Shown here: positions 46,127 to 64,000 of the stretch, piece by piece
Numbering within the stretch: position 1 is the first letter of the stretch
How the letters are laid out: every line of letters begins with the position of its first letter
DNA from: Streptomyces sp. NBC_01551
GTDB lineage: Bacteria; Actinomycetota; Actinomycetes; Streptomycetales; Streptomycetaceae
Assembly (NCBI RefSeq): GCF_026339935.1
Contig: NZ_JAPEPX010000001.1
Coordinates: 4,211,501 to 4,275,500 of the forward strand
Reading direction: 5' to 3'
Length of the DNA stretch: 64,000 bases
Notes under the pieces: model-generated
What the model was told of the DNA's origin: nothing
What the model saw: the letters and a program-made list of their open reading frames with translations, nothing else
The model's database searches: none
Made by a program: the position numbers and the translations under genes

Positions 46127-48406
46127 ATGGGCCGAGCAGATGCGCGACGGGCGCAGCAGCAGCGCGGAGCGCGGCGGGCACCTGGCGGGCGCGCCAAGGG
46201 TGACAAGGGCAGCGCCGGCAAACCGAAGGGCATACGTCGCTTCTTCACCTGGAAGAAGCTCCTCGGCACGTTCTTCGGGCTGGTGCTGCTCGGCATGGGC
46301 GGCCTGGTGTTCCTGTACTACTCCGTGGAACCGCCGAACCCGAACAAGAACGCGACGCTCCAGAGCAACGTCTACAAGTACGCGGACGGCTCGATCATGG
46401 CGCGCACCGGCGGCCTCAACCGCGAGATCCTGCCGATCAGCAAGATCCCGGAGGACGTCCAGACGGCCTTCATCGCGATCGAGAACAAGTCCTTCTACCA
46501 GGACAGCGGCATCGACCTGATGGGCGTGGCCCGCGGTGTCTTCAACACCGCCACGGGCAAGGGCAAGGCCGGTGGCTCGACGATCACCCAGCAGTACGTC
46601 AAGAACTACTACCTGACCCAGGACCAGTCGGCGACGCGCAAGATGCGGGAGCTGATCATCTCCCTCAAGGTCGACCAGCGCATGGAGAAGCCCGACATCC
46701 TCGCCGGGTACCTGAACACCAACTTCTACGGCCGCAACGCGTACGGCATCCAGGCGGCGGCCCAGGCCTACTACGGGATCGACGCCGAGAAGCTGTCGCT
46801 GGCGCAGGGCGCCTACCTCGCCGCCGTCATCCAGGCCCCCAGCCAGTACGACTGGGAGACCGCCGGCCCGAACGGCAAGCGGCTGGTCATGATCCGCTTC
46901 AACGCGGTCCTCGACAACATGGTCGAGATGAAGAAGCTGACCCCGGAGAAGCGCAAGGAAATCGAGTTCGTGCCGCCGGTCAAGCCCAAGGCGACGCCGG
47001 GTCTGGAGGGCCAGAAGGGCTACCTGGTCCAGGCCGCCGAGGACGAGCTCGACCGTCAGGGCATCCCCGAGTCGGAACTCAAGGCCGGCGGCTGGACGAT
47101 CACCCTCAACATCGACAAGAAGCGCCAAGAGGCGATGGAGAAGGCCGTCCAGGACGAGCTGGAGTCCAAGCTCGACCGCAAGGACACCAAGAAGCGGCCC
47201 GTCGACCAGAGCGTGCAGGCGGGCGCCACCTCCGTGGACCCGAAGACCGGCGCGATCGTCGCCATGTACGGCGGCCTGGGCCGGTCCGAGCAGTGGAACA
47301 GCAACGCCCTGCGCACCGACTACCAGCCCGGCTCGACCTTCAAGCCGGTCGTGCTCGCCTCCGCCCTGGAGAACAAGGCGACCACCCAGGACCACAAGCC
47401 GATCAACCCGAACACGCTCTACGACGGCACCAGCAAGCGCAAGGTCGTCGGCAGCGACGTTCCGTTCAACCCGCAGAACCAGGACGACAAGAACTACGGC
47501 GATCCGATGATGACCGTGCAGGAGGCCACCAACTGGTCGGTGAACTCCGTGTACGCGCAGATGATCGTGGACGCCAAGCCGAAGGCCGTGAAGAAGACGG
47601 CCCTCGAACTCGGCATGCAGGACCGTGACGGCTGGCCCGACGACAAGCCGGCCATGACGCTCGGCACGATGAGCGCCAACACCCTGGAGATGGCCGCCGT
47701 CTACGCGACCTTCGACAACCACGGCAAGAAGGTCACCCCGAGCATCGTCAAGAGCGCGACGCACAAGGACCGCGAGTTCAAGCCGACCCCGGCCATCGGC
47801 GGCCAGGCCATCACCCGCGAGACCGCCGACACCGTCACCAAGGTGCTCACCGGGGTCGTCAACGAGGGCTCCGGCAAGGTCGTGAAGAGCTCCGCCTACG
47901 AGGCCGCCGCCAAGACCGGTACCACCGAGAAGAACGTGGCCGGCTGGTTCACCGCGTACACCCCGGAGCTCGTGACCGTCGTCGCGATCTTCGGTGAGGA
48001 GCCGGGCACCCACAAGCAGGTCACGCTGACCGGCGCCGCCGGTGGTGGCCGCGCCGGTGGTGGTACCTTCCCCGCCGAGATCTGGCAGGCGTACACCCTC
48101 GCCGCCCTCAAGGGCGTCAAGACGGGCGACTTCAAGCTGCCGGACGCCGAGATGGGCACCCCGCAGGTGCCGAGCCGCAGCGCCTCCCCGTCGAGCTCGG
48201 CCAGCCAGTCCGCCAGCACCAGCCAGTCGCCGAGCACCAGCCGGTCGCCGAGCAACACCCCGGACCCGAGCCAGAGCTCGACCAAGCCGGACCCGAGCAC
48301 CAGCCAGAGCCCGGTGAAGCCGAGCAACAGCCAGAGCCCGGTGAAGCCGAGCAACACACAGAGCCCGGTGAAGCCGCCGCCGGTCCTGCCCGTACCGGGC
48401 AACTGA
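46127..48406 (+). CDS. Class A penicillin-binding protein (GT51 transglycosylase plus transpeptidase)
   Basis: This 759-residue bifunctional peptidoglycan synthase has a basic cytosolic tail, one membrane helix (about 45-65), a GT51 domain (about 75-250) and a transpeptidase domain (about 340-670). In GT51 the catalytic Glu is E119 in AIENKSFYQDSGID, and GGSTITQQYVKN is the second motif. The usual Asp after that Glu is Asn here. The transpeptidase has nucleophile S403 (STFK), the SVN box in NWSVNSVYAQ and KTGTT. The last 85 residues are a Ser/Pro/Thr/Gln tail of repeats. It is divergent from the SPFH operon. Confidence 0.94.
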   Translation: MGRADARRAQQQRGARRAPGGRAKGDKGSAGKPKGIRRFFTWKKLLGTFFGLVLLGMGGLVFLYYSVEPPNPNKNATLQSNVYKYADGSIMARTGGLNREILPISKIPEDVQTAFIAIENKSFYQDSGIDLMGVARGVFNTATGKGKAGGSTITQQYVKNYYLTQDQSATRKMRELIISLKVDQRMEKPDILAGYLNTNFYGRNAYGIQAAAQAYYGIDAEKLSLAQGAYLAAVIQAPSQYDWETAGPNGKRLVMIRFNAVLDNMVEMKKLTPEKRKEIEFVPPVKPKATPGLEGQKGYLVQAAEDELDRQGIPESELKAGGWTITLNIDKKRQEAMEKAVQDELESKLDRKDTKKRPVDQSVQAGATSVDPKTGAIVAMYGGLGRSEQWNSNALRTDYQPGSTFKPVVLASALENKATTQDHKPINPNTLYDGTSKRKVVGSDVPFNPQNQDDKNYGDPMMTVQEATNWSVNSVYAQMIVDAKPKAVKKTALELGMQDRDGWPDDKPAMTLGTMSANTLEMAAVYATFDNHGKKVTPSIVKSATHKDREFKPTPAIGGQAITRETADTVTKVLTGVVNEGSGKVVKSSAYEAAAKTGTTEKNVAGWFTAYTPELVTVVAIFGEEPGTHKQVTLTGAAGGGRAGGGTFPAEIWQAYTLAALKGVKTGDFKLPDAEMGTPQVPSRSASPSSSASQSASTSQSPSTSRSPSNTPDPSQSSTKPDPSTSQSPVKPSNSQSPVKPSNTQSPVKPPPVLPVPGN
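48175..48385 (+). repeat. Tandem repeats in the PBP gene 3' end
   Basis: Units of the type AGCCAGTCGCCGAGCACC and AGCCAGAGCCCGGTGAAGCC (SQSPS(T/N) and SQSPVKPSN) repeat, and the last unit occurs three times almost unchanged. They encode the extracellular low-complexity tail of the PBP. Confidence 0.8.
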
Positions 48407-48412
48407 CACGAC

Positions 48413-48457
48413 ACACCGCCGCCCCGCAGCGTTCGCGCTGCGGGGCGGCGGTGTTTT
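48413..48457. terminator. Bidirectional terminator with a UUCG tetraloop
   Basis: A perfect 19-base stem (48413-48431 with 48436-48454, starting ACACCGCCGCCCCGC) closes a TTCG loop and is followed by TTT. It lies between the convergent PBP and phosphatase genes. Confidence 0.95.
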
Positions 48458-48477
48458 CCCTGCTCTTCGCAGTCTGC

Positions 48478-50703
48478 TCAGCGCCGGTCGGGCGCCGCCG
48501 GCAGCGGGAGTTCGAACCAGACCACCTTGCCGCTGCTCAGCCGGGTCGCGCCCCAGCGCCGGGCCATCCGGTTGACCAGGAACAGGCCGCGGCCGCCCTC
48601 GTCGGTGTCCCGGGCGCGGCGTTGGCGGGGCAGCTGCGGGGAGTCGTCGCCGACCTCGCAGCGCAGCACGTCCGTACGGAGCAGGCGCAGTGTGACGGGC
48701 CGCTCCGCGTACCGCACGGCGTTCGTGACGACCTCGCTCACCAGCAGCTCCAGCGAGTCCTGGAGCTCCTCCAGGCCCCACCGGGTCAGCGCGCGGCGGG
48801 CGAACCGGCGGGCCCGGCCCGGCGCGGTCTCCTCCGGGTCCAGGAACCAGTACGCGACGTCGCTCGGCGCGATCCCGTCGAAGCGGGCCGCGAGCAGCGC
48901 GATGTCGTCGTCCCGGTCGCCCGGGCCGAGCATGTCGAGGACGTCGTCGCAGAGCGCCTCCAGCGGCGGCGGGTGGTCCAGGCCGGTCAGCTGGGCGGTG
49001 GTGGCGAGGCGTTCGCGCAGCTGCTCGATGCCGGTCCACACGTCGCGCAGCCGGGACTCCACCAGGCCGTCGGTGTAGAGCAGCAGCGTGGCCCCGGCCG
49101 GGGCGTCCAGCTCCACGGCCTCGAAGTCCACGCCGCCGACGCCGATCGGGGCGCCGGGCGGCACCCGGAGCACCTCGGCGCGGCCGCCCAGGTGCAGCAG
49201 CACGGGCGGCGGGTGGCCGGCGTTGGCGATGGTGATCCGGTGCGAGACGGGGTCGTAGACGGCGTACAGGCACGTGGCCATCCGGTCCGAGCCGAGCCGC
49301 TGCGCCTGCTCGTCGAGGTGGTGCAGCACCTCGGCCGGCGGCAGGTCGAGCTGCGCCAGCGTCTGGGCCGTCGTCCGCAGCTGGCCCATGATCGCGGCGG
49401 AGGTCATCGAGTGGCCCATGACGTCGCCGACGACGAGCGCGACCCGGCTGCCGGGCAGCGGTATGGCGTCGTACCAGTCGCCGCCGACCCGGGCCGTCTC
49501 GGCGGCGGGCAGGTAGCGGGAGGCGAGGCGGACCCCGGTGGGCTGGGGGAGGCTGTCGGGGAGCATGGTGCGCTGGAGTTCGTCGGCGATGTACGCCTCG
49601 CGGCCGTACAGGACGGCCTTGTCGATGCCGAGCGCGGTGTGCGTCGCCAGCTGGGCGGCGACCAGGAGGTCGTTGGTCTCGAAGGCGGGCCGGTCCGGGG
49701 TACGCAGGAACACGGCCGCGCCGATGACCCGGCGGCGGCCCCGCAGCGGGGCCAGGATGGCGCGCTGGCCGCGCGGCACGGGGTGCTCGGAGCCCAGCAG
49801 CTCGGGGAGGGCCGCCTTGGCGGCGGCGGAGGACCCGAAGACGGGCCGCACGCCGCGCAGCACCTCGGCGAGGGCCCCGCCGGAGCGGATCTCGCACAGC
49901 TCGGCGGCGGGCAGGTCACCCTGCGGGCCGACCAGCGGCAGCTGGCTGAAGTCGAGCTCGCCGGACGCCCCCGGAGGAGCGCCGCCGAGGAGCCCCGGGC
50001 CCGTCATCAGGCCGGTGGTGACCGGGACCCCCGCGGTCCCGGCACTTCCCGCGCCCGCGGCGCCCTCGGCCCCGGTGAGGTCGTCGATCGGCCGGAGCCG
50101 GTCGGTGCGCCGGAGCCTTAAAACGACCGGGCCGACGGGGCGTTCGTCGCCCACCGGGAGGGGGTCGCGGAGGTAGACGAGGATGGCGTCCGAGAAGGTC
50201 GGCACGGTGGCCCGGCACAGGCCGAGCACGATCTCGTCGAGGTCGATGCCGCGCGCGATCCGCCGGGTGGCGGCGCCGACGAACCGCAGCCGGTCGCCTT
50301 CCCGCCGGGCGGTGCCGATCTCCGGTATTCCCTCGACACCGGACCGGCCGGAACCGGAACCGGCGCCCGCGACGGGACCCGGGGCACCCGCGTCCACGGC
50401 GTCCGCCGCGTTGCGGGCGGCCGCGCCGTCGCGGGTACGGGCGTTGCCCTGGCCGCCTTCGCCGGCGCCGCCGGCGGCCGCGTCGGCCGTCGCGCGGGGC
50501 CGCGGCAGGCCGGCGGACTCGGAGTGCGGGCGGGCGTCGGACGCCGCCGCGGTGGCGCCGCCCGGTTCGTTGCCCGGGACCTGCGCATGCGTGCGCACGG
50601 CCTCGGCGGCCGCGATCGGGGCCTTGCCGTGGCCGGCGTCATCCGTTCCTCCGCCGGAGGCGACGGGCTGCGGGCCCTCCTGGGAGGTGGGGTACTCCGT
50701 CAC
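48478..50703 (-). CDS. SpoIIE-type PP2C phosphatase with GAF and anti-sigma-like ATPase domains, TTA-containing
   Basis: This 741-residue regulator has a long disordered Ala/Gly/Pro-rich N-terminus (about 1-115), a GAF-like region (about 115-345), a SpoIIE/RsbU PP2C phosphatase domain (about 360-590) and a C-terminal HATPase domain of the RsbW type. The phosphatase shows GGDWYDAIPL, VVGDVMGHSM, YTDGLVESR and DDDIALLAAR; the HATPase shows LELLVSEVVTNAVRYA and GGRGLFLVNRMARRWG. Such proteins tune sigma factors through anti-sigma/antagonist partners. Codon 195 (50119-50121) is TTA, which implies bldA dependence. The GTG at 50703 is the likely start. Confidence 0.92.
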   Translation of the reverse strand: MTEYPTSQEGPQPVASGGGTDDAGHGKAPIAAAEAVRTHAQVPGNEPGGATAAASDARPHSESAGLPRPRATADAAAGGAGEGGQGNARTRDGAAARNAADAVDAGAPGPVAGAGSGSGRSGVEGIPEIGTARREGDRLRFVGAATRRIARGIDLDEIVLGLCRATVPTFSDAILVYLRDPLPVGDERPVGPVVLRLRRTDRLRPIDDLTGAEGAAGAGSAGTAGVPVTTGLMTGPGLLGGAPPGASGELDFSQLPLVGPQGDLPAAELCEIRSGGALAEVLRGVRPVFGSSAAAKAALPELLGSEHPVPRGQRAILAPLRGRRRVIGAAVFLRTPDRPAFETNDLLVAAQLATHTALGIDKAVLYGREAYIADELQRTMLPDSLPQPTGVRLASRYLPAAETARVGGDWYDAIPLPGSRVALVVGDVMGHSMTSAAIMGQLRTTAQTLAQLDLPPAEVLHHLDEQAQRLGSDRMATCLYAVYDPVSHRITIANAGHPPPVLLHLGGRAEVLRVPPGAPIGVGGVDFEAVELDAPAGATLLLYTDGLVESRLRDVWTGIEQLRERLATTAQLTGLDHPPPLEALCDDVLDMLGPGDRDDDIALLAARFDGIAPSDVAYWFLDPEETAPGRARRFARRALTRWGLEELQDSLELLVSEVVTNAVRYAERPVTLRLLRTDVLRCEVGDDSPQLPRQRRARDTDEGGRGLFLVNRMARRWGATRLSSGKVVWFELPLPAAPDRR

Positions 50704-50956
50704 GCGTGGAATTCCGTCCGTTTGCGCTCGATGTGCGCTGCACTCAACTCGGTCAGTCGCGGTATACCCGCTCAGCGGCAGGGGCACCACCGCCCCGGGG
50801 TTCCGCGTCCCGCTCGTTACCTCTCGCTCTGCGTTGATCTCCGGTCAAGTTCCGTCTACGGCACGTTATTTACGGATGTACAGGTGCGCGGCGACACCGC
50901 GCACTACCCAGCGGAGGACGATCCTACGTTTGAACCCCGGGGGCGCATCAAGGGTC

Positions 50957-51667
50957 TCATGAGGTCATATGCGCCGGGGTGCGGTCCCAGTCCTCCGGCA
51001 GAACCGGAACACCCCAGGCCGGATCCGGTCTCCAGTCCTGCCAGTGGTCGCAGAACGGCGGCCCCCAGGCCCGGATCACGTCCACCGCGGCGTGCCCGGC
51101 CTCCCGGACCCGCTCGGCCTGCTCACGGCCCATCAGGCCGAGCCGCTGCGCCTGCGCGAACTCGTCCTCGTCCAGCCACTTCCAGCTGCGGTCGGGGTTC
51201 ACGGAGATGTCCAGGAAGTGGTCCTCGGAGTCCACTCCACCGGCCCAACGGGTGCGCGGCTCCTCCAGGTTCACGTACCAGTTCCTGAACCGCCAGTCCC
51301 CGTCCCAGAACAGCCACACCGACCAGGGGTCCCCGGGTCGGGCCAGCTTGAGCACCCCGGCGCCGGACCAGTGCGCCCGTACGGTGGTGCGCGGCGCGGT
51401 GTAGCGGGTGGCGAGCGGCTCCGCGTGGACGGACGTGCCGTCGGCGAGGACCGGCTTGACGCACTCGGTCCCGGGGGCCATCCACACGGCCAGCAGCTCC
51501 GGGGTGTCCTGGACCACCGTGACCGGGCGGCAGATGTGGACCTGGCCCTTCAGCCCCGGGGCGTGGTCCCGGTACCGCCAGAGGATCTGCTCCCCGGGCG
51601 CCCAGTGTGTGTCCGCCCAGCGCGTGTCCTGCGCGTCGCCGCCCCCGCGGCCTCCGGTACCTGTCAT
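50957..51667 (-). CDS. DUF402 (FomD-like) protein
   Basis: This 236-residue protein has the DUF402 fold, with RYTAPRTTVRAHWSGAGVLKL, the DGDWRFRNWYVNLEEPRTR core, and DSEDHFLDISVNPDRSWKWLDEDEF that supplies acidic metal ligands. The best-studied relative, FomD, hydrolyses a cytidylyl-phosphonate in fosfomycin synthesis, and others hydrolyse nucleoside diphosphates. Here no phosphonate genes are near, so a general phosphatase role is more likely. The ATG at 51667 is used. Confidence 0.88.
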   Translation of the reverse strand: MTGTGGRGGGDAQDTRWADTHWAPGEQILWRYRDHAPGLKGQVHICRPVTVVQDTPELLAVWMAPGTECVKPVLADGTSVHAEPLATRYTAPRTTVRAHWSGAGVLKLARPGDPWSVWLFWDGDWRFRNWYVNLEEPRTRWAGGVDSEDHFLDISVNPDRSWKWLDEDEFAQAQRLGLMGREQAERVREAGHAAVDVIRAWGPPFCDHWQDWRPDPAWGVPVLPEDWDRTPAHMTS

Positions 51668-51771
51668 GCGCAGATCTTAGGGCGGGTGCCCCCGCGCCCG
51701 CTGCGGTGCAGGTCACCGAGGTGTGCGGGCGGGGGAAACGACCGAATCCGGCCCCCGGGGAGAAACGTTTT

Positions 51772-53187
51772 TCAGGGTCGCGTCATGCCCAGTACGTCAA
51801 GGGCCGCGTCCAGCTGTTCCAGGGTCAGGTCGCCGCGCTCGACGTAGCCGGACTCCAGCACGACCTCCCTGATCGTCTTCCGCTCGGCGAGGGACCTCTT
51901 CGCGACCTTGGCGGCCTCCTCGTACCCGATGTAGCGGTTCAGCGGGGTCACCACGGAGGGCGAGGACTCGGCGTACTCCCTGGCCCGCGCCACATTGGCG
52001 GTGATGCCGTCGACCGTCCGGTCGGCCAGCAGGCGGCAGGCGCTGCCGAGCAGCCGGATGGATTCCAGCAGGTTCTTCGCCATCACCGGGAGCATCACAT
52101 TGAGCTCGAAGTTGCCCGCCGCGCCCGCCACGGCGACGGCCGTGTCGTTCCCCGTCACCTGCGCGGCGACCATGAGCACGGCCTCCGGGATCACCGGATT
52201 GACCTTCCCCGGCATGATCGAGGACCCCGGCTGGAGGTCGGGGAGATTGATTTCGGCCAATCCTGTGCGCGGCCCCGAGGCCATCCAGCGCAGATCGTTG
52301 CAGATCTTGGTGAGCGAGACGGCGATGGTGCGGAGCATCCCCGAGGTCTCGACCAGCGCGTCCCGCGCCCCCTGGGCCTCGAAGTGGTCGCGGGCCTCGG
52401 TGAGCGGCAGCCCGGTGGCGTCGGCCACCTCGGCGATCACGGCGGCCGAGAACCCCGGCGGGGTGTTGATCCCGGTACCCACCGCGGTCCCGCCGAGCGG
52501 GAGTTCCGCGAGCCGCGGCAGGGCGGCGCGCAGCCGCTCGACCCCGTAGCGCACCTGGGCGGCGTACCCGCCGAACTCCTGGCCCAGGGTGACCGGGGTG
52601 GCGTCCATCAGGTGCGTGCGGCCGGCCTTGACCACCTCGGCGAACTCGGCGGACTTGCGCTCCAGGGCGGCCGCGAGGTGCTCCAGGGCGGGGATCAGCT
52701 CGCGGGTGACGGCGGCGGTCGCGGCGATGTGGATGGAGGACGGGAACACGTCATTGGAACTCTGCGAGGCGTTGACGTGGTCGTTGGGGTGCACCTCGCG
52801 GCCGAGCCGCTCGGTGGCCAGGGTGGCGATCACCTCGTTGGTGTTCATGTTGGACGAGGTCCCGGACCCGGTCTGGAAGACGTCAACCGGGAAGTGCTCG
52901 TCCCAGCGGCCCTCCGCGACCTCGGCGGCGGCGGACCCGATGGCCTGCGCGAGGTCCTCGTCCACCACGCCGAGGCGCGCGTTGACCACCGCGGCGGCGG
53001 CCTTGACGCGGGCCAGGGCCTCGATGTGGGCGCGCTCCAGCCGCTGCCCGGAGACCGGGAAGTTCTCCACCGCGCGCTGGGTCTGGGCCCGCCACTTGGC
53101 GTGCGCGGGGACCCGTACCTCGCCCATCGAGTCGTGCTCGATCCGGTAGGCGTCCTCGTCGTTCTGTCGGCTCTGATCGTCAGTCAT
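51772..53187 (-). CDS. fumC: Class II fumarate hydratase (FumC)
   Basis: This 471-residue cytosolic TCA-cycle enzyme interconverts fumarate and malate without iron. The fumarase/aspartase signature [10 protein letters not shown] is present, as are the active-site regions [29 protein letters not shown] and [17 protein letters not shown]. It is longer than the frame core only by a short Asp/Glu/Arg-rich leader. The ATG at 53187 is preceded by GAGGAGG. A second, class I fumarase gene lies 6.6 kb to the right. Confidence 0.95.
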
Positions 53188-53292
53188 GTGTGGTGCCTCC
53201 TCAAAAAGTTGAGCAATTGTCTTGTTCGAAGTGTTCCCAAGTCCCCTACCGGCCAGTAAATACCGTGGGTAACACCGACAGGGGAGGCGTTC

Positions 53293-54816
53293 ATGACACG
53301 TGTACGTACGAGACCCAGGCTCAGATCTACCTTCGCCGCCGCCGCGGCGATCGCGGCCGCCCTCGGGGGCGTCACCGCCATCACCCCCATGGCCCAGGCA
53401 GCTCCCGCCGCGGCGGTCACCCCGCTCTCGCCCGAACTGGAGGCCATCCGCGCGGCGGAGGCCACCAAGATCTACGGCGACCCGGCGATCCGCCCGCTGG
53501 GCGAGCGCAAGACCGGCCTGATCTCGCTCGGCGACAGCGAGATTTCGGGCGAGGGCGTCGGCAACTACGATCCGGCGACCAACACCCCGAACAACCAGTG
53601 CCACCGCTCGCCGGATTCCGCGATCCACCGCACCGGCATCCCGGCCGACCTGACCTTCAACGTCGCCTGCTCCGGCGGCTACACGGGCAACATCCGCATC
53701 GGCGGCAGCAAGCAGTACGCCGACGAGCTGGTGCAGAGCGACAGCCTCGCCATCAAGGCCCGCAACACGAAGATCAAGATGGTGCTGCTGGTCGCCGGCG
53801 CCAACGACGACCTCCAGTTCGGCCCGGTCATGACCGACTGCGTGACCCGCTGGGTGCTCAGCCAGGGCACCTGCGAGCCCAAGTACGGGCCGGGCTGGCA
53901 GGCGCGCGTGGACGGCCTCAAGCCCAAGGTCGAGTCCACGGTCGCCGACCTCAAGACCGTCATGCGCGACGCGGGCTACGCCGACTCCGACTACAAGCTC
54001 GTCGTGATGGGCTACCCGAGCCCCATCGGCCCCGACTTCCACGACAACCCGAACTTCCCCGGCAAGCTCCCCGGCGGCTGCGCCGGCTACGACTCCGACG
54101 CCCAGTGGGGCCGCAACCACGCGGTGCCGACCTTCGAGAAGGGCATGCGCGCGGCCGCCCTCGCGTCGGGCGCGACCTACCTCGACAACTCCCGCCTCTT
54201 CCACGGCCACGAGGTGTGCATGGAGGACACCTGGGCCCGCGGTCTCTACCTCGACCTCGGCGACCACTTCCCGTGGGACGAGAACACCGCCCGCCAGTCC
54301 TTCCACCCCAACTACCGGGGCCACGGCGCGTTCGCGTCCTGCCTGACCCAGCTCTACGATTCGGGCCTGCGAGAGGCCTCCTGCGCCGACCCGGCGAGCA
54401 CGGGCACCCCGGTCCTCCAGGCCGGAGCCTGGGACTCCCTCTACGCCCCGCTGAAGAACGAGGCGACCGGCAACTGCCTCGACTCCTACGGCGGCTCCAG
54501 CGCCAACGACACCAAGGTGGTGGGCTGGGACTGCCACGGCGGCCGCAACCAGAGCTGGTGGTACGACTCCGCGAAGAAGTCCGTGCACATCGAGCTCACC
54601 CACGACCGCTGCCTGGACGCCCCGGGCGCCAACTACGGCGCCGGCACCGGCCTGATCCTCTGGAACTGCCACGGCGGCGCGAACCAGCAGTTCCTGCGCG
54701 ACGGCGCCACCCTGCGCCCCGCGGCCGCGACCGGCATGTGCCTGACCGTGGCCGCCGCCCACGAACCGCTGCGCCTCCAGCCCTGCAACGGCTCGGCGAA
54801 CCAGCGCTTCGCGTAA
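53293..54816 (+). CDS. Secreted SGNH/GDSL hydrolase with ricin-B lectin domain
   Basis: This 507-residue exported enzyme has a signal peptide (about 1-36), a GDSL/SGNH domain (about 70-385) and a C-terminal ricin-B beta-trefoil (about 390-507). The nucleophile block is [11 protein letters not shown] (GDSE in place of GDSL), the oxyanion Asn is in AGANDDL, and the catalytic His is in FHPNYRGHG. The lectin part shows NQSWW, NQQFL and NQRFA, which are QxW-type repeats. It probably deacylates or de-esterifies a polymer that the lectin binds. Ten cysteines suggest disulfides. Confidence 0.92.
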
Positions 54817-54897
54817 CCCCGCCCCGATCACCCCGAACCCCCCACACCCGGCCGGCGCACCCCGGCCGGGTGGCTCCACCCGGGGCGGCGCTCCTTC

Positions 54898-54963
54898 GTG
54901 GGGCCGTGCGGCCGTGGGGCCGTGCGGCCGTGGGGCAGGGCCGTGGGGCAGGGCCGTGGGGCC
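54898..54963. repeat. GC-rich tandem repeat downstream of the GDPD gene
   Basis: GTGCGGCCGTGGGGCC-type units of 15-16 bases, with the variant CAGGGCCGTGGGG, follow each other about four times between the convergent GDSL and GDPD genes. Confidence 0.75.
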
Positions 54964-54966
54964 GCC

Positions 54967-55734
54967 CTACGCCTTCTCCACCAGCTCCCGTACCTCCCGG
55001 GGCCGGTTGGTGATGATCGTGTCCACACCGAGGCGCAGGCACAGCTCCACGTCCTCCGGCTCGTCCACGGTCCACACCCGCACCGACAGCCCCTTGGCCT
55101 TCAGCCGCCCCACCAGCCCCGGGTCAGCGCGGACCAGGTCGATCCCCGGGCCCGCGTGCGTGGCGTACGGGGGCCGCGGCGGCCGCAGCCGCCGCTCCAT
55201 CAGGTACACGGCGGGCAGCCCGGGCGCCAGCCGGTGCATCCGGGTCAGCGCGGTCCGGGAGAAGCTCATCACCTCGACCAGGCCCGAGCGGCCGTCGGCC
55301 AGCCCGTACGCGCGGAGCATCCGCACCAGCTCGGCCTCCAGCGCTCCGCCCGCGCGCGTCGGGTGCTTGGTCTCGACGGCGAGCCCGACGGGCCGGTCCG
55401 CGTCCAGCGCCGCCCGGAGCAGCTCCTCGAACAGCAGCACCCGCGCCCCGCGGTGCTCCTCGCCCTTCCAGCCGCCGAAGTCGAGCGCGGCCAGCTCCCC
55501 GTGCGTCATCTCGGAGACCACCCCCCGCCCGTCGGAGGTCCGCTCGACGCGCCGGTCGTGCACGCAGACGAGCTGCCGGTCGGCGGTGAGCCGTACATCG
55601 CACTCCAGCGCGTCGGCCCCGTCGGCGATGGCCTGCCGGTAGGCGGCGAGCGTGTGCTCGGGATGCTCGTGGGAGGCCCCGCGATGGGCGACCACCCTGG
55701 TCGCGCGGGCGGTGGAGAGGAACAGCTGGGTCAT
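54967..55734 (-). CDS. Glycerophosphodiester phosphodiesterase
   Basis: This 255-residue TIM-barrel enzyme hydrolyses glycerophosphodiesters to glycerol 3-phosphate and an alcohol. The family motifs are visible: VAHRGASHEHPEHTLAAY with catalytic His and Glu, ALECDVRLTADRQLVCVHD with metal ligands and the second His, and LAVETKHP. No signal peptide was seen, so it is probably cytosolic. The ATG at 55734 is chosen because the family begins there. Confidence 0.93.
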   Translation of the reverse strand: MTQLFLSTARATRVVAHRGASHEHPEHTLAAYRQAIADGADALECDVRLTADRQLVCVHDRRVERTSDGRGVVSEMTHGELAALDFGGWKGEEHRGARVLLFEELLRAALDADRPVGLAVETKHPTRAGGALEAELVRMLRAYGLADGRSGLVEVMSFSRTALTRMHRLAPGLPAVYLMERRLRPPRPPYATHAGPGIDLVRADPGLVGRLKAKGLSVRVWTVDEPEDVELCLRLGVDTIITNRPREVRELVEKA

Positions 55735-55787
55735 GGCGTAGACGTTAACCGGATGCGATGACCGGCCCGCGACGGCATCCTCCACGG

Positions 55788-56144
55788 ATGGCGGAACAGT
55801 TCGTGACACTTCACTGCGAACCCTGCCCGTCCTGCCGGTACGAGGCCTGGCAGCAGGTGGTCGACGGTCGGCTGCGCTGGTACGAGTCCGAGCACTGCCC
55901 GGTGTACGAGGTGCAGGCGTGCGGCGGCGGCTGGGGCCCGCCCCCGCCCTGGGTCCGCGACCGGATCGTGGCCCGCGAGGGCACGGAACACCTCGCGGTC
56001 GGCGGCCCGGACGGCATCCCGCTCAAAGCCGTCCGCGAGACGTACGGGCTCACCCTGCCGCAGCTCCGCCACGCCCGCACCCACGGCATCGAGGCCACCC
56101 CGACCGAGGCCGCCTTCCTGCGCTCGCCGCCGCCGGCCCCGTGA
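55788..56144 (+). CDS. Small Cys-rich protein of unknown function
   Basis: The 118-residue product begins MAEQFVTLHCEPCPSCRYEAW, with a likely zinc site formed by C-x-x-C-x-x-C and later cysteines (SEHCPVY, VQACGGG). The second half has an unassigned helical segment (LKAVRETYGLTLPQLRHARTHG). The ATG at 55788 is preceded by no strong ribosome-binding site, and an upstream ATG at 55758 is less likely. Its 3' end overlaps the nominal end of the large leftward gene, which is one reason to doubt that gene's C-terminus. Confidence 0.68.
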   Translation: MAEQFVTLHCEPCPSCRYEAWQQVVDGRLRWYESEHCPVYEVQACGGGWGPPPPWVRDRIVAREGTEHLAVGGPDGIPLKAVRETYGLTLPQLRHARTHGIEATPTEAAFLRSPPPAP

Positions 56145-59055
56145 CCGCGGGCCCCCGCACCGGGCGGCCGCCGCTCCCGGGTCGCCTTGCGCCGCGGCGT
56201 ACCGGGGGGCGTCCTCGGCCGCCCGCGCCCCGCGCCCCTCGGCTTCGGTCAGTCCCCGGGCCCGAGGCCCGGACGGCGCGGGCCGGTCTCCGGGGGCGGG
56301 GGCGTGGGGCCCGGGCCCGACGCGGGCCGGGGCGGGGGCCCGCCTCTTCCGGGCCGGGATACGCCGAGCTGCCAGAGGTGCGCCCCGGGCGCCCCCGGCC
56401 CGCCGGGGCCGCCTCGGGCGCGGGGGTCGTGGGGCCGGCCGGGGTCGCGGAGGTAGCCGGGTCCGGGGTCGCGGAGTCGACCGTGGCGGCCCGGGGCGTG
56501 GGGGCTTCCAGGCCCATGGTGGCGGCTGGGGTCTCCGGGGCCACGGGGGCGACCTCGGCGGCCGGGGTCGTCGGCGTCGGGGCCGCCTTCGGCGGCTTCC
56601 AGCGGTCCGGTACGGCCGACAGCCGCTGTACCGCCCCCGGGTCCCCGTCCCGCACCTGCGCGACGGCGCGTGCCCGGAGCGCGCTCTGCCGGGCGACGGG
56701 GGCGAACCCCGGCGCGGCGTTGCCCGTCTCGGAAGGCAGCGCGCGCAGTCCCATCTGGTTCAGCTCCTGCTGGATGTCCGGGGCGAACACCTCGCGCGGC
56801 AGCTGCCAGGAGGCCGCGCCGTCGACGTCGACCCGGTGCTCCGTGCCGTCCACGTCGAAGGTGAGGCCGTATCCGAGGTACTGGTCGTCCCGGTCGAACA
56901 GCAGGTCCCCCCGGACCCGGCCGCCCCGGTCCCGTACGTCGTCCGCCAGCACCTGCACGGCGGCGGGCAGCGGGTTCGTACGGCCGAGGCTCGCGACGTA
57001 GCCGTCCGCGTCGACCGTCACCGTCTCCGCGTTCTTCTCCTGGCTGGTCTTGTACGTCATCCGGAAGCGGGTCCGCCCGTCTTCGCCCCGGACCGTCTCG
57101 ATCTCGCCGATGCTCGCGTAGCCGAACTCCAGCCGCCCGTCACCCTTTTCCCGGCCCCACTTGGCAGCCATCTGGTCGAACTGCACCTGGTGGGCCAGGG
57201 CGGCCGGCGGATCGCCCCGACCGATGATGGTGACCCGCGCGTTGGGGTTCTCTTGCAGGATGATCTCGGCGTTCGCGACTCCGGTTCCGCCCGATCCGGC
57301 GATGATCCAGTGGTCGGCGTCGAGCGCGTTGAACCGGTTCTCGGCGACCTCGTCGCCCATCAGCGCCCGCCCGGGGGCATCCTCGCGCGCGGCCTCCCAC
57401 TTGTGGGTCGCCTCCAGGACCCCGAAGCAGTTCCCGATACGGAGGGCGGGCCCGCCGTCCCGACCGGTCCGCAACAGGTCCTTCAGCTGGGACGCTTCCA
57501 GCAGCTCCAGCACCGTACGGGTGTCGGCGCCGCCCCGCTCGGCCCGCGTCAGCGAGTCACGCAGCTGCTCGGCCCCGGCGACGCCCTCGCCCTCGAGCTC
57601 CCGCAGCCGCTCCCCGACCAGCCGCAGGGCTTCGCCCCGGCTCTCCACGCCGTACTTGCCGCGGATGTTTCCGGGCACGAGTTCCGGCGGCAGGCCGGTC
57701 GCCACGACGGGCGTACCGTCGCAGGCCACCCGCAGCGGCTTCTTCGCCGCGGCACCGTCCCCGTTCAGGGTGTTGATCTCGGCGATGAGCCCGCCGTTCG
57801 TGCCGAGCAGCAGCCGTGCGTGCCCGTTCACCACGTCGCCCTGGGTGGCCAGCTGGTCCTCCCAGACGCGGACCGCGTTGATGGGCACCCGGTCCCGGGG
57901 GTCTTCCACTGCCGCGTACGGGTCCACGCCCATCCACTGGGCCAGATCCCGGTCCTGGTCCGCCGACTGCACGATCCCGACACCGGGGTCCAGGTGCCAC
58001 CGCCCGCCGGCGTCGATCAGCAGTGCATCCGTGTCACGGCCGCTGAGGCTCGCCCCACCGCCGATCGCCACCCTGCGCAGCGGGACCTCCCCGCGGGCGA
58101 GCTGCTCCTGGATCTTCTGCTCGGTCCGCGTACTGACCTGCCCCCGCCAAACCGCCCACTCGCCTGCGGCGGCCCCCGTCTGGTCGAACGGCAGCGGGAG
58201 CCCGTTCTGGTCGTAGCCGGGCATGGCCATGGTGACCTCACGCCGCCCGATGAACGCCGCGACCTGCCGCTCGGCGCGGGCGGCGGCCTCGCGGGAGGCC
58301 TGGAGCGCGGCGGCGTCGGCGCGGTCGAGCTGCTCGATGGGGCGGGCGAGGTCTTCGAGGAGGCGCGCGGAATGTATGGACATGGAGCCGACCGAAATAC
58401 CGAACCGAACGACTGCTGCTTCCTCTTGGGAGAGGAATGCGTCCTGGTCATCGAGCGTGGCGGTCGGCCGCAGTCCGTATGGGTCGAGCAACGCGGAGAA
58501 TTCCGCACGCGCCGCAGCCTGCTCTTGCGACGAGAGGCCGCGGTCTGCACTTCGTGCGGCCAGCCAGTCGAGCTCGGCTATGCGTCCCACGTCCGCGGCG
58601 GACAGCTCCCGCTCGGCCGGAAGCTCGGGACCTTCGCGGAGGAGGTCTTCGGGTACAGGAGTCAGGCCCTCGGCCGCTCGCTGACGCACGGTGGTGAGTT
58701 CGCCCAGCTCGTGGGCGAGTATGCGTCCGAGCAGTTCGCGCGGAAGGCGATCGGAGACGAGGATCACGTAGTTCTGTGACTTGGTGTTCGTCGCCGTGGC
58801 GACGATTCCCTCCGCCTCCAGCGGAAGGGCGTCCACCCAGATGGTCGCCGCGCCGTCGTTGCCGTCCCGCAGCTTGAAGTACTGGCGTCCGTCATCGCTC
58901 TGAAGCGACTGGAAGCCCGCGAGCCGCTCGCGCAGGACAGTGGCGGCCACCCCTTCCATGTCCTGCGCCGCAGCAGATACGAGCTCTTGCTGCTGCCCGG
59001 ACCTGTACGGAGGTAGGGTCCCTGTGCCCATCCGAGGGTAGGTCGACCGCTCCAC
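56050..59055 (-). CDS. Large protein with HELGEL motif and flavoprotein-like double Rossmann signatures
   Basis: I do not recognise this ~1000-residue protein as a named family. Residues about 25-125 form a compact domain ending in LGRILAHELGELTTV, an HExxE-like motif (about 115). Residue 332 begins GGGASLSGRDTDALLIDAGG, a dinucleotide-fold-like glycine motif. About 585-592 is AGSGGTG followed by NARVTIIGRGD, a second one. DADGYVASLGRTNPLP (about 684) resembles the second FAD motif of two-fold flavoproteins. After about residue 815 comes a Pro/Ala/Thr linker, then an Arg/Gly/Pro tail that looks out of frame. The GTG at 59055 has GGGGAGGGG 6 bases upstream. No signal peptide is present. Confidence 0.72.
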   Translation of the reverse strand: MERSTYPRMGTGTLPPYRSGQQQELVSAAAQDMEGVAATVLRERLAGFQSLQSDDGRQYFKLRDGNDGAATIWVDALPLEAEGIVATATNTKSQNYVILVSDRLPRELLGRILAHELGELTTVRQRAAEGLTPVPEDLLREGPELPAERELSAADVGRIAELDWLAARSADRGLSSQEQAAARAEFSALLDPYGLRPTATLDDQDAFLSQEEAAVVRFGISVGSMSIHSARLLEDLARPIEQLDRADAAALQASREAAARAERQVAAFIGRREVTMAMPGYDQNGLPLPFDQTGAAAGEWAVWRGQVSTRTEQKIQEQLARGEVPLRRVAIGGGASLSGRDTDALLIDAGGRWHLDPGVGIVQSADQDRDLAQWMGVDPYAAVEDPRDRVPINAVRVWEDQLATQGDVVNGHARLLLGTNGGLIAEINTLNGDGAAAKKPLRVACDGTPVVATGLPPELVPGNIRGKYGVESRGEALRLVGERLRELEGEGVAGAEQLRDSLTRAERGGADTRTVLELLEASQLKDLLRTGRDGGPALRIGNCFGVLEATHKWEAAREDAPGRALMGDEVAENRFNALDADHWIIAGSGGTGVANAEIILQENPNARVTIIGRGDPPAALAHQVQFDQMAAKWGREKGDGRLEFGYASIGEIETVRGEDGRTRFRMTYKTSQEKNAETVTVDADGYVASLGRTNPLPAAVQVLADDVRDRGGRVRGDLLFDRDDQYLGYGLTFDVDGTEHRVDVDGAASWQLPREVFAPDIQQELNQMGLRALPSETGNAAPGFAPVARQSALRARAVAQVRDGDPGAVQRLSAVPDRWKPPKAAPTPTTPAAEVAPVAPETPAATMGLEAPTPRAATVDSATPDPATSATPAGPTTPAPEAAPAGRGRPGRTSGSSAYPGPEEAGPRPGPRRARAPRPRPRRPARAVRASGPGTDRSRGARGAGGRGRPPVRRGARRPGSGGRPVRGPAVTGPAAASAGRRPRSGWPRCRGCGRGGAAAG

Positions 59056-59116
59056 GTGATGCCCCTCCCCAGGCAGCGCCATATGCACATCGCACAACAG
59101 ACTTTAGGATCATGTC

Positions 59117-59692
59117 ATGTTGAGAGCTCGCTCTTCGTCGGAAGCGCACCTGTACATGGATCTGCACCCCTGTGAGTGCGGGGGTGCGGATTTCGAGCGT
59201 CGGCATCATCTGGAGCAGCACGGTGATGACCTGGTGGCGGTGTATGAGGGTGTGTGCCGCAACTGCGGTCGGGAGCGTCGCTTCGAGTTCGTGATGGCCG
59301 TGGAGATTCCGCCGCCTCCGCCTGCTTACGGTGGCGCCGAGCCGTCCGCGATCATCGATCCTGGTGAGTTCTCCGATGTAGCAGATCGTTACCGACGCTG
59401 GGCCGGGACCGGAGTGCTCAACTCGCCGGAATCCGAGCGCCACAAGTACCGGGGTGCGATGGCGAGTGCGCTGGCCGCAGTCGAAGAGGTGTTGAAGTTC
59501 ATTCCGGAGGGCCAGGACGCGGTTCCGGCCTCCGCGTTCACCTCTGCGCGCGGGAGGGCGCGGTACGAGAAGGACCCGGAAAAGTTCTCCCGTGAATTCC
59601 TTGAGATCGAGCGCCGCGTCACGATCAGGTCCCTGGCGGTCATCGACAGGGTGGCGCGCTCGTCCGGCGGAGCCGATCCCGCCGCCGAGTGA
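59117..59692 (+). CDS. Cys4 zinc-ribbon protein divergent from the large gene
   Basis: The 191-residue product has an N-terminal zinc ribbon with C19-x-C21 and C47-xx-C50 (LHPCECGGADF and GVCRNCGRERRFEF). A middle acidic/Pro-rich part and a helical C-terminal domain follow (RGAMASALAAVEEVLKFIPEG, then YEKDPEKFSREFLEIERRV). Third codon positions are less GC-rich than in neighbours, a hint of recent transfer. It is divergent from the large protein gene by 61 bases, and small accessory proteins of this look often accompany toxin-like genes in actinobacteria. The ATG at 59117 follows AGGA. The function is unknown. Confidence 0.8.
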   Translation: MLRARSSSEAHLYMDLHPCECGGADFERRHHLEQHGDDLVAVYEGVCRNCGRERRFEFVMAVEIPPPPPAYGGAEPSAIIDPGEFSDVADRYRRWAGTGVLNSPESERHKYRGAMASALAAVEEVLKFIPEGQDAVPASAFTSARGRARYEKDPEKFSREFLEIERRVTIRSLAVIDRVARSSGGADPAAE

Positions 59693-59698
59693 ACGGGA

Positions 59699-59738
59699 GA
59701 GGGGCCCCGCGCCGCCGTTCGGCGGTGCGGGGCCCCTC
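59699..59738. terminator. Bidirectional hairpin terminator
   Basis: GAGGGGCCCCGCGCCGCC (59699-59716) pairs with the matching arm at 59721-59738, with one G-U pair and a GTTC loop, between two convergent genes. Confidence 0.9.
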
Positions 59739-59752
59739 GGCCCTTCCTCAGG

Positions 59753-61429
<1,677 letters not shown>

Positions 61430-61577
61430 TCCTCACTCGGCAGACAGCACTGACGACCAATTTGGCAGCGCGGCTATCCAGCGTAGGACCTCTGCCGGAA
61501 GCTGTGCTTGTGAGGTAAGGCTCACTCGACGCGCGCGGGACTCCACGGAGGAGTATCGCGATCTATCGTGTCTGGCT

Positions 61578-62255
61578 ATGCTGGGTCGCGTGGACTTGGA
61601 AAAGCACGCCGCCGCCCCCGCCGCGCCCGCCGATCTGCGCGCCTCCGACGCCGACCGGGACCGGATCGCGCAGATCCTCGCCGATGCCCTCGCGGAGGGC
61701 CGGCTGACCGCCGAGGAGCACTCCGAGCGCCTGGACTCGCTGTACGCCCTCAAGACCGTCGGGGAGCTGGAGGTGCTGGTACGGGACCTGCCCGCGCCCG
61801 GCGTCACCCCTCCGGCCCCGGCCTCCGCGGCCGCCTACGCCACGGGGCCGGCGTCGGCCGCCGCCACCGACACCGTCGTCGCCGTGTGCAGCAGCTCCGC
61901 CCGCAAGGGCCGCTGGCGGCCGGGCGCGCACACCCGGGCCGTCTCCGTCATGGGCGACATCTGCATCGACCTCACCGAGGCCGTCTTCGAGCAGCAGGTC
62001 ACCGAGATCAACGTGACCTGCGTCCTCGGCAACGTCGAGATCCTGGTCCCCGAGAACGTCACCCTGCGCGGCTACGGCAGCGGCGTCCTCGGCAACTTCG
62101 AGGTGCGCGGCCAGGGGCGGGGCGAGTCCGACCCGCAGGCGCCCGTGGTGATCGTGCGCGGCTTCGCGCTGCTCGGCAACATCGAGGCCCGTCCCAAGCT
62201 CGGCGCCCGCCTGGTGGACCTCGCGCTGAAGCTGCGGAAGCGCACGCAGAAGTAG
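61578..62255 (+). CDS. DUF1707 and LiaF-like C-terminal domain protein
   Basis: This 225-residue protein has the DUF1707 segment (LRASDADRDRIAQILADALAEGRLTAEEHSERLDSLYALKTVGEL) of about 50 residues, an Ala/Pro linker, and a beta-helix-like domain of the LiaF/DUF2154 kind with SVMGDICIDLTEAVF, VTCVLGNVEILVPENVTLRG and LLGNIEARP. Such proteins are thought to take part in envelope-stress signalling. The ATG at 61578 is used; a GTG at 61590 is an alternative. It is divergent from the class I fumarase. Confidence 0.88.
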   Translation: MLGRVDLEKHAAAPAAPADLRASDADRDRIAQILADALAEGRLTAEEHSERLDSLYALKTVGELEVLVRDLPAPGVTPPAPASAAAYATGPASAAATDTVVAVCSSSARKGRWRPGAHTRAVSVMGDICIDLTEAVFEQQVTEINVTCVLGNVEILVPENVTLRGYGSGVLGNFEVRGQGRGESDPQAPVVIVRGFALLGNIEARPKLGARLVDLALKLRKRTQK

Positions 62256-62438
62256 CGGCCGGCCGGCGCGGGCGGAAGCGGAACGCGCGTGACGGCGCCG
62301 GGCGCGCACCGGCGCATGTCGCCGTCATGTTTCGGTCGAAGGCCCGCCCCGGGCGGCACCCGGTGCATAGGGGCGCGTACAGCGGGTAGGGACAGGTGCA
62401 TCGTCTCTCGCTTGCGTATACGTCGTCAGGAGTAGACC

Positions 62439-62837
62439 GTGCAGCATCCGCCGCATCAGTCCCTGCAGGTAGCCGCCGTACAGACCCTTCGGGCGCGTCC
62501 GGCCGCCGTGCCGAAGCCGCGGGTGCCGGCGAGGGAAGAGGACGGCCCATGGCACGCGGAGGCGGTGTGCCGCCGGGACGAGGCGGGGCTCTTCTTCGCC
62601 CCCTCCAAGGAGCCGACCGCGGCCCGGCTGTCGCGCGAGGAGGCCGCCAAGCGGGTCTGCGCCCGCTGTCCGGTGATGGTCGCGTGCCGGGAGCACGCGC
62701 TGCTCCAGCCGGAGCCGTACGGGGTGTGGGGCGGGCTCACGGCCGCCGAGCGCCGGGTGGTGCTGGCCCGCAGGCGGCGCCGGGCGGCGGAATTGCGCCA
62801 GAGTCCGGGAGCCGGGCCGATCGCGGCCGCCGGCTAG
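62439..62837 (+). CDS. WhiB-like (Wbl) iron-sulfur regulator
   Basis: This 132-residue protein has the four Wbl cysteines: AVCRRDEAG, then RVCARCPVMVACREHAL (C-xx-C-x5-C), followed by the GVWGGLTAAER turn and a basic tail RRVVLARRRRRAAEL. Wbl proteins bind a 4Fe-4S cluster and act with the primary sigma factor. The place beside a class I fumarase and glpX is the one I remember for wblI in S. coelicolor, but I do not assign the name firmly. The GTG at 62439 is used. Confidence 0.92.
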   Translation: MQHPPHQSLQVAAVQTLRARPAAVPKPRVPAREEDGPWHAEAVCRRDEAGLFFAPSKEPTAARLSREEAAKRVCARCPVMVACREHALLQPEPYGVWGGLTAAERRVVLARRRRRAAELRQSPGAGPIAAAG

Positions 62838-62880
62838 CGGATCTGCGCCGGTCGCCGGGCACGGAGTCCTGGAAACGCCG

Positions 62881-62916
62881 GAGGGGCGGTCCCGCCGCAC
62901 ACGGGAACCGCCCCTC
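62881..62916. terminator. Hairpin terminator between wbl and glpX
   Basis: GAGGGGCGGTCCCG (62881-62894) pairs with CGGGAACCGCCCCTC (62902-62916) with one bulge, between convergent genes. Confidence 0.8.
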
Positions 62917-62947
62917 TCGCCGTACCGTCGGCCGGCCCGGTCCGCCC

Positions 62948-63979
62948 CTACTGGGCGCGGTCGAAGTCGATCGCGCTGTACGCGCGCAGCTTCGACAGCC
63001 GGTGGGTCGAGTCGATCTGCCGGATCGTGCCCGACTTCGAGCGCATGACCAGCGAGGACGTGGTCGCGGTCTCCGAGCGGTAGTGGACGCCGCGCAGCAG
63101 CTCGCCGTCCGTGATGCCGGTGGCGACGAAGAAGACGTTGTCGCCGGAGACCAGGTCGTTCGTGTGCAGCACGCGGTCCAGGTCGTGGCCCGCGTCGATC
63201 GCCTTCTGGCGCTCGGCCTCGTCCTTGGGCCACAGCTTGCCCTGGATCGTGCCGCCGAGGCACTTTATGGCGCACGCCGAGATGATGCCCTCGGGGGTGC
63301 CGCCGATGCCGAGCAGCAGGTCCACGCCGGTGCCCTCGCGCACCGCCATGACCGAGCCCGCGACGTCGCCGTCGGAGATGAACTTGATGCGCGCGCCGGT
63401 CTCGCGGATCTCCTTGACGATGCCCTCGTGGCGGGGGCGGTCCAGGATGATCACGGTGACGTCCTCGACGGCCATGTTCTTGGCCTTCGCGACCCGGCGG
63501 ATGTTCACCGAGACGGGCGCGTTGATGTCGACGAAGTCGGCGGCCTCGGGGCCGGTGACCAGCTTCTCCATGTAGAAGACCGCGGACGGGTCGAACATGG
63601 TGCCGCGGTCGGCGGCGGCCAGCACGGCGATGGCGTTCGGCATGCCCTTGGCGTTCAGGGTGGTGCCGTCGATCGGGTCCACGGCGATGTCGACCTCGGC
63701 GCCGGTGCCGTCGCCGACCCGCTCGCCGTTGAACAGCATCGGGGCTTCGTCCTTCTCGCCCTCGCCGATGACGACGACGCCGTTCATCGAGACGGTGGAG
63801 ATCAGGGTGCGCATCGCGTTGACCGCGGCGCCGTCGGCGCCGAGCTTGTCGCCGCGCCCGACCCAGCGGCCGGCGGCCATGGCGGCGGCCTCGGTCACCC
63901 GGACGAGTTCGAGAGCGAGGTTGCGGTCGGGGGCCTCGGGAGAGACTTCGAGCTGGGGCGGCAGGTTGTGCTCGGTCAT
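62948..63979 (-). CDS. glpX: Class II fructose-1,6-bisphosphatase GlpX
   Basis: This 343-residue gluconeogenic enzyme removes the 1-phosphate of fructose 1,6-bisphosphate. Metal and substrate motifs are visible: [50 protein letters not shown] and [20 protein letters not shown]. The length matches the actinobacterial GlpX, the main FBPase in these organisms. The ATG at 63979 lies 21 bases from the right edge, and its promoter is mostly outside the window. Confidence 0.95.
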
Positions 63980-64000
63980 CGGAGCGCACCTTTCTGTACG

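Follow-up and report, generated by a model that had tools for sequence, protein, structure and literature searches.

A patchily distributed Streptomyces gene pair with relatives at the C-termini of giant polymorphic-toxin-like proteins

The window analyzed here is a 64,000-nucleotide stretch of Streptomyces sp. NBC_01551 (contig NZ_JAPEPX010000001.1, positions 4,211,501 to 4,275,500), toward the end of which the gene for a large protein lies next to a divergent gene for a small partner protein. The large protein consists of a module that elsewhere ends long proteins but here stands alone, composed of a putative degenerate zincin domain and a domain resembling thioredoxin reductases and flavin monooxygenases (TrxR/FMO-like). 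The small gene occurs together with the zincin part. We give roughly an even chance to the reading that the two genes form a mobile cassette of effector/immunity-like type, akin to the C-termini of giant polymorphic-toxin-like proteins. The module, its standalone form and the partner family appear to be new, although known kinds are close.

Results

At E ≤ 0.001, with the best 8000 candidates scored, the large-protein family comprises 92 proteins, including P0001, which is almost identical to the window's own large protein. Sources that name the relatives nearly always use 'hypothetical protein' (with Streptomyces as the host in the case of the large protein); 'PT domain-containing protein' for P0018 is an exception. 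Querying with the C-terminal region of the giant G035 protein, under rules that admitted only proteins of about 1000–3200 residues, returned 70 proteins. In 59 of these the module, located with a profile of the window family, lies at most 150 residues from the C-terminus; 65 span most of the profile, and in 54 of the 65 the module is preceded by at least 300 residues. By precomputed annotation 30 of the 70 carry a trafficking-domain marker, either WXG100_2 (11) or DUF4157/eCIS_core (19). Pfam scans bore out the WXG100_2 annotation for P0233 and the G035 protein, and likewise eCIS_core for four proteins picked because they were annotated with it. Named hosts of the giant relatives include Nocardia, Actinospica and Kofleriaceae. 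Two Streptomyces proteins (P0248, P0255) have the module at the start, followed by a long low-complexity tail. A class-wide search of 197 genomes with the G035 module gave clear matches only in its own genome, G111 and G189, and one weak match.

The original prediction described a protein of about 1000 residues divergent from a 191-residue gene, together at 56050–59692. Both open reading frames are there, at 56050–59097 (minus strand, 1015 residues) and 59117–59692 (plus strand), and the extent of the larger one needs revision. The window protein agrees with P0001 over 852 residues up to a frame break near 56391, after which, in the alignment, the tail common to P0001 and other relatives is encoded in the neighboring frame, with its stop read at 56251–56249 (minus strand). 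Judged by this alignment, the sequence past about 56391 in the original translation is an out-of-frame reading, and the end of the 1015-residue frame was rejected as the natural C-terminus, the relatives' tail lying in the adjacent frame. The break may be an assembly error or real; intact relatives exist. Because many relatives begin at a position that aligns with the GTG at 59052, the large protein is probably nearer 930 residues. The features of the pair are as follows, with model residues counted from the ATG at 59082.

56249–59052, minus strand: large gene, most likely extent (open reading frame, relatives, start by alignment, tail frame)
58363–59016, minus strand: putative degenerate-zincin N-terminal domain (N-domain), model residues 23–240
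58696–58713, minus strand: HELGEL, with HExxE replacing HExxH (sequence)
56620–58125, minus strand: TrxR/FMO-like domain of two dinucleotide folds with a helical insert, model residues 320–821 (predicted structure)
58048–58062, minus strand: GGGAS, candidate first dinucleotide motif on the side of flavin adenine dinucleotide (FAD), followed by the invariant D357
57280–57297, minus strand: GSGGTG, candidate NAD(P)-side motif
56965–56997, minus strand: VASLGRTNPLP, ATG-like second motif
56249–56619, minus strand: Pro/Thr-rich tail, with an LW motif kept near the C-terminus in relatives
59053–59116: divergent intergenic region, 64 bp
59117–59692, plus strand: partner gene, 191 residues, immunity-like
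59171–59266, plus strand: partner zinc-ribbon region (C19, C21, C47, C50)

No sigma-70-type consensus was found in the 64-bp intergenic region. All the motifs named in the original prediction (HELGEL, GGGAS, GSGGTG, VASLGRTNPLP and the Pro/Thr-rich stretch behind them) are present. It knew of no standard enzyme that combines these parts, and neither protein of the pair matched Pfam, NCBIfam or PADLOC at E ≤ 1, known immunity families of Pfam and NCBIfam included for the partner.

Among 392 genomes from the genus, 20 have the partner; with the window counted, it stands at 22 places. Sixteen of the other 21 places have a divergent full-length large gene adjoining, one (L047) has a large-gene fragment, and four have no large gene: in G312 the partner is an orphan, in G123 and G347 it is truncated, and the match in G021 is distant. 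The fragment at L047 (8393–9325, minus strand, G054) covers profile positions 13–110 only and stands beside an intact partner. The reciprocal search, over an equally large sample whose genome handles indicate the same genomes, found the TrxR-like part at 19 clear places; four weak places (E 2.6e-4 to 8e-4) are left out of the counts, and copies may be missed in either direction, with the 3 best candidates scored per genome in the TrxR-like search and 8 in the partner search. All 17 full-length copies of the large gene, window included, have the partner, in a patchy distribution over 16 of the 392 genomes. The two short copies without the N-domain (frames of 560 and 531 residues) lie in genomes without a partner match. 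These are G189 and G243, which have the TrxR-like part only, as standalone frames at L058 (7202–8794, minus strand) and L135 (1189–2868, plus strand).

All five loci taken from named contigs hold the divergent pair, L002 and G078 being probably one genome, and an order-wide sample added seven more partner genomes, six of them (not G608) with an adjoining large gene. At the G608 locus (L073, 6900–8783, plus strand) the partner relative ends a 628-residue frame, a 1037-residue gene then follows, and no large gene of the family was found beside it. Both genes belong to conserved families, and the two co-occur across Streptomyces genomes. Besides the pair, none of the window genes at 48001–64000 was shared with 26 other loci at E 1e-8.

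The partner is also found without the standalone large gene. A class-wide sample contained it in 15 of 394 genomes, ten of them outside the genus. In two of these ten the large gene is present and divergent (G767, G801); in four the partner lies directly behind a giant zincin-domain protein (G759, G489, G539, G780). Other giant proteins are near it in G814 and G701, and none was recognized near it in G731 and G760. The G814 protein (L091, 10800–16793, plus strand) carries WXG100_2, is 1998 residues long and combines an N-domain-like stretch with an end of the nonspecific-endonuclease type. A search of 80 genomes with the zincin domain matched 11, in nine of which the partner follows directly on the same strand; three of these loci were resolved as stop-to-stop frames only, and the zincin match is short in G842 and G850. 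At five loci (L093, L094, L105, L107, L113) a second partner copy without the ribbon region follows. The partner family comprises 256 proteins at E ≤ 0.001, 120 of them listed, and its CxC and CxxC (C19, C21, C47, C50), noted in the original prediction, are nearly invariant. One source labels a relative, P0161, as a HEPN domain-containing protein. Because of its position, its duplication and its linkage to the zincin part, the sequence data suggest that the partner may be an immunity protein.

A link between partner and zincin part may also show in composition. Across 22 loci, GC content at third codon positions (GC3, from values rounded to two decimals) correlates between the N-domain and the partner (r 0.78, p 2e-5), while that of the TrxR-like part is uncorrelated with either (0.28 with the N-domain, 0.18 with the partner). 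In the window, the lower GC3 originally remarked on for the partner is real (0.76), but it is not special to the partner, since residues 1–250 of the large protein also stand at 0.76; residues 250–880 stand at 0.93. Divergence is faster in the N-domain, whose mean identity is 46% against 57% for the TrxR-like part (64% versus 91% between L004 and L033). Distances to the partner correlate at 0.91 for the N-domain and 0.88 for the TrxR-like part, a slight separation, and partial correlations separate them weakly (N-domain and partner given the TrxR-like part, 0.67; TrxR-like part and partner given the N-domain, 0.54). These values fit the N-domain and partner being a putative exchangeable unit, with adjacency as a confounder. 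The GC3 correlation is clearer than the distances, and a single recombination tract over adjacent sequence could give it.

In G012, a phosphodiesterase gene, a 128-residue gene and a fumarase gene (96% identical; labels by eye) are found side by side and the pair is absent. The G012 DNA matches window positions 54982–56123 and then 59797–62000, with 85 bp in between as against 3.67 kb in the window. On this alignment, the pair is a putative two-gene mobile unit with an apparent empty site in G012.

Predicted structures cover the large protein, and in them the two-dinucleotide-fold domain that the motifs had suggested is predicted with confidence. Its overall fold is of the TrxR/FMO type among the solved structures compared, which were the Foldseek top 1000 re-aligned with VIA, and another fold may also fit. 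Most solved structures that share it belong to metabolic enzymes. The closest kinds, at 10–17% identity, are low-molecular-weight thioredoxin reductase, YpdA/Bdr, flavin monooxygenases and ornithine hydroxylases, and the domain differs from them in a helical insert and a short first helix (both in the model) and in having no conserved CxxC. A sequence-only search of solved structures gave nothing usable for either protein (E 0.63 or worse).

Both glycine-rich dinucleotide motifs are strictly kept. Over 46 aligned rows, G341, G343, A344 and D357 of the GGGAS region and G596, G598, G599 and E606 of the GSGGTG region are present in all (G601 in 39), as is G700 of VASLGRTNPLP, with R701 in 44. Cysteine reaches at least 15 of the 46 rows at two columns only (454, 21 rows; 552, 24 rows), which do not form a CxxC, and a thioredoxin-type disulfide reductase was therefore rejected. 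In the C-terminal tail, LW, VW or QW occurs within the final 110 residues of 71 of the 92 relatives and may serve as a peptide for docking or sorting.

The zincin-like domain retains the zincin motif only in part. The original prediction called the protein zincin-like and noted HELGEL, but a working zincin site is not supported: the window protein has HExxE, the first His is kept in 35 of 46 aligned rows, and of the 166 domain rows with letters at the second-His position none has His there (18 further rows are gapped, and HExxH-bearing relatives lie outside that set). An active zincin in the window protein was accordingly rejected. Among related domains, six of 15 have HExxH, and these active copies share HExxHxxQ (5 of 6) and a later invariant Glu with toxin zincins, HExxHxxQ-E being the signature given in PMC3482391. 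They differ from PVC-metallopeptidases in having no Pfam eCIS_core match. Pfam matches to metallopeptidase families are weak and serve as hints only: DUF6782 (E 0.0035), M78 (0.013) and M48 (0.021) in one member each of 26 scanned, and M78 in P0229 (0.0081). In the sequence-only search of solved structures, the zincin set weakly matched a designed protein (E 0.046) and, at the motif region, BepA-type M48 peptidases (E about 1).

Discussion

The closest known kind are the polymorphic toxins with N-termini for the type VII secretion system (T7SS; WXG) or for PVC/extracellular contractile injection systems (eCIS; DUF4157). The relatives' module likewise occupies the C-terminal toxin position, in some behind WXG100_2 or eCIS_core, and the adjoining small gene, tandem-duplicated at some loci, stands where an immunity gene would. 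The difference is that the Streptomyces form is standalone and that the module is about 780 residues long. In arrangement the tandem small genes also resemble the immunity paralogue arrays beside T7SS toxin genes described in PMC9484751.

In this effector/immunity-like reading, the partner would bind the zincin-like domain and hold the large protein in check. The TrxR/FMO-like domain would bind FAD and NAD(P)H and be the active part; it would work as a monooxygenase or as an oxidase that consumes NAD(P)H, and not as a disulfide reductase. This chemistry is predicted from fold and motifs only. Since no export domain is recognized in it, the Streptomyces form may act inside the cell or use another export route. 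We also entertain, more tentatively, that the domain represents an effector end of a new class, namely a redox toxin in a freestanding cassette whose dead protease domain docks the immunity protein. Such a flavin-dependent toxin would consume NAD(P)H or oxidize a cellular target. Oxidoreductase ends are not new as such, as a Rossmann-fold redox-type toxin, Tox-Aldo-ketoreductase, is included in PMC3482391 (Zhang et al., 2012), of which the first 300,000 of 357,715 characters contain neither 'FAD' nor 'flavin'. No description of a flavin-type effector end was recognized in literature searched by titles and the starts of abstracts, nor one of the module in passages of PMC3482391, PMC11297309 and PMC7159879 or in search results, a scope that covers few subscription papers.

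Several observations weigh against this reading. Toxin and immunity genes are not usually divergent, and in G035 the partner is convergent and about 2 kb away. In 11 of the 70 giant proteins the module lies more than 150 residues from the end, 40 of the 70 have neither marker in the precomputed annotation, and the window's own genome has no WXG100_2 match. Other domains follow parts of the module in P0237 (GT4-conflict glycosyltransferase and EndoU nuclease) and P0264 (phosphotransferase). The presumed FAD-binding GD position is GAA in all 46 rows, so that flavin binding is not assured, and the apparent loss of HExxH makes the target of the partner's neutralization puzzling. Finally, while the homologues at the ends of marker-bearing giants support the toxin/accessory module first proposed, toxicity, binding and enzyme activity of the pair are predicted only.

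A minor but real possibility is an intracellular toxin-antitoxin or phage-defense pair, in which the partner restrains a redox effector freed on infection or stress and nothing is exported. The window protein has no match to a trafficking domain (Pfam, NCBIfam) behind which the module could sit, the pair is apparently mobile with an empty site, and the partner can stand alone (G312). However, PADLOC gave no match, no defense genes were recognized by eye among the neighboring frames, and WXG100_2 and eCIS_core proteins carry the same module at their C-termini. It is unlikely, though not far-fetched, that the module is instead a non-toxic structural, carrier or chaperone part of giant exported proteins, with the partner as chaperone or adaptor of the zincin-like domain. 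The domains behind it in P0237 and P0264, the several N-domain and calpain matches within P0282, the mostly dead zincin site and a chaperone role suggested for DUF4157 in PMC11297309 would suit such a role, but the C-terminal location in 59 of 70 long relatives would not, a standalone Streptomyces form would have no cargo, and the strictly conserved dinucleotide motifs suggest an enzyme.

We regard it as improbable that the large protein is a flavoenzyme of metabolism or tailoring, aided by the zinc-ribbon protein as an accessory and with no role in conflict. Solved structures of the same fold are mostly metabolic and no secretion genes were recognized by eye in neighboring frames, but the patchy presence, the lack of shared neighbors, the empty site in G012 and the homologues within toxin-like proteins argue otherwise. 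A role of the small gene in regulating transcription of the large gene is scarcely credible: the divergent genes across 64 bp and the zinc ribbon would allow it, whereas in the second family the small gene lies downstream on the same strand, with a second copy at five loci, and no DNA-binding family matched in Pfam or NCBIfam.

Should the activity proposed for the effector/immunity-like cassette be real, flavin-dependent redox chemistry would join the interbacterial effectors. Dozens of natural pairs are available in the family, and the short copies, which have neither the zincin part nor a partner, are a natural separation of the two domains. The prediction is that the zincin-like part should be bound by the partner.

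Neighboring sequences

A 128-residue Cys-containing gene at 55758–56144 (plus strand), without a Pfam match, lies on the far side of the large gene. A longer frame containing it matched 12 loci, but its own protein matches none of them, and a three-gene module was rejected. The gene is independent of the pair, since it also stands next to the empty site in G012. At 59699–59738, between the partner and fumarase genes, a GC-rich inverted repeat, read by eye, is a possible bidirectional terminator.

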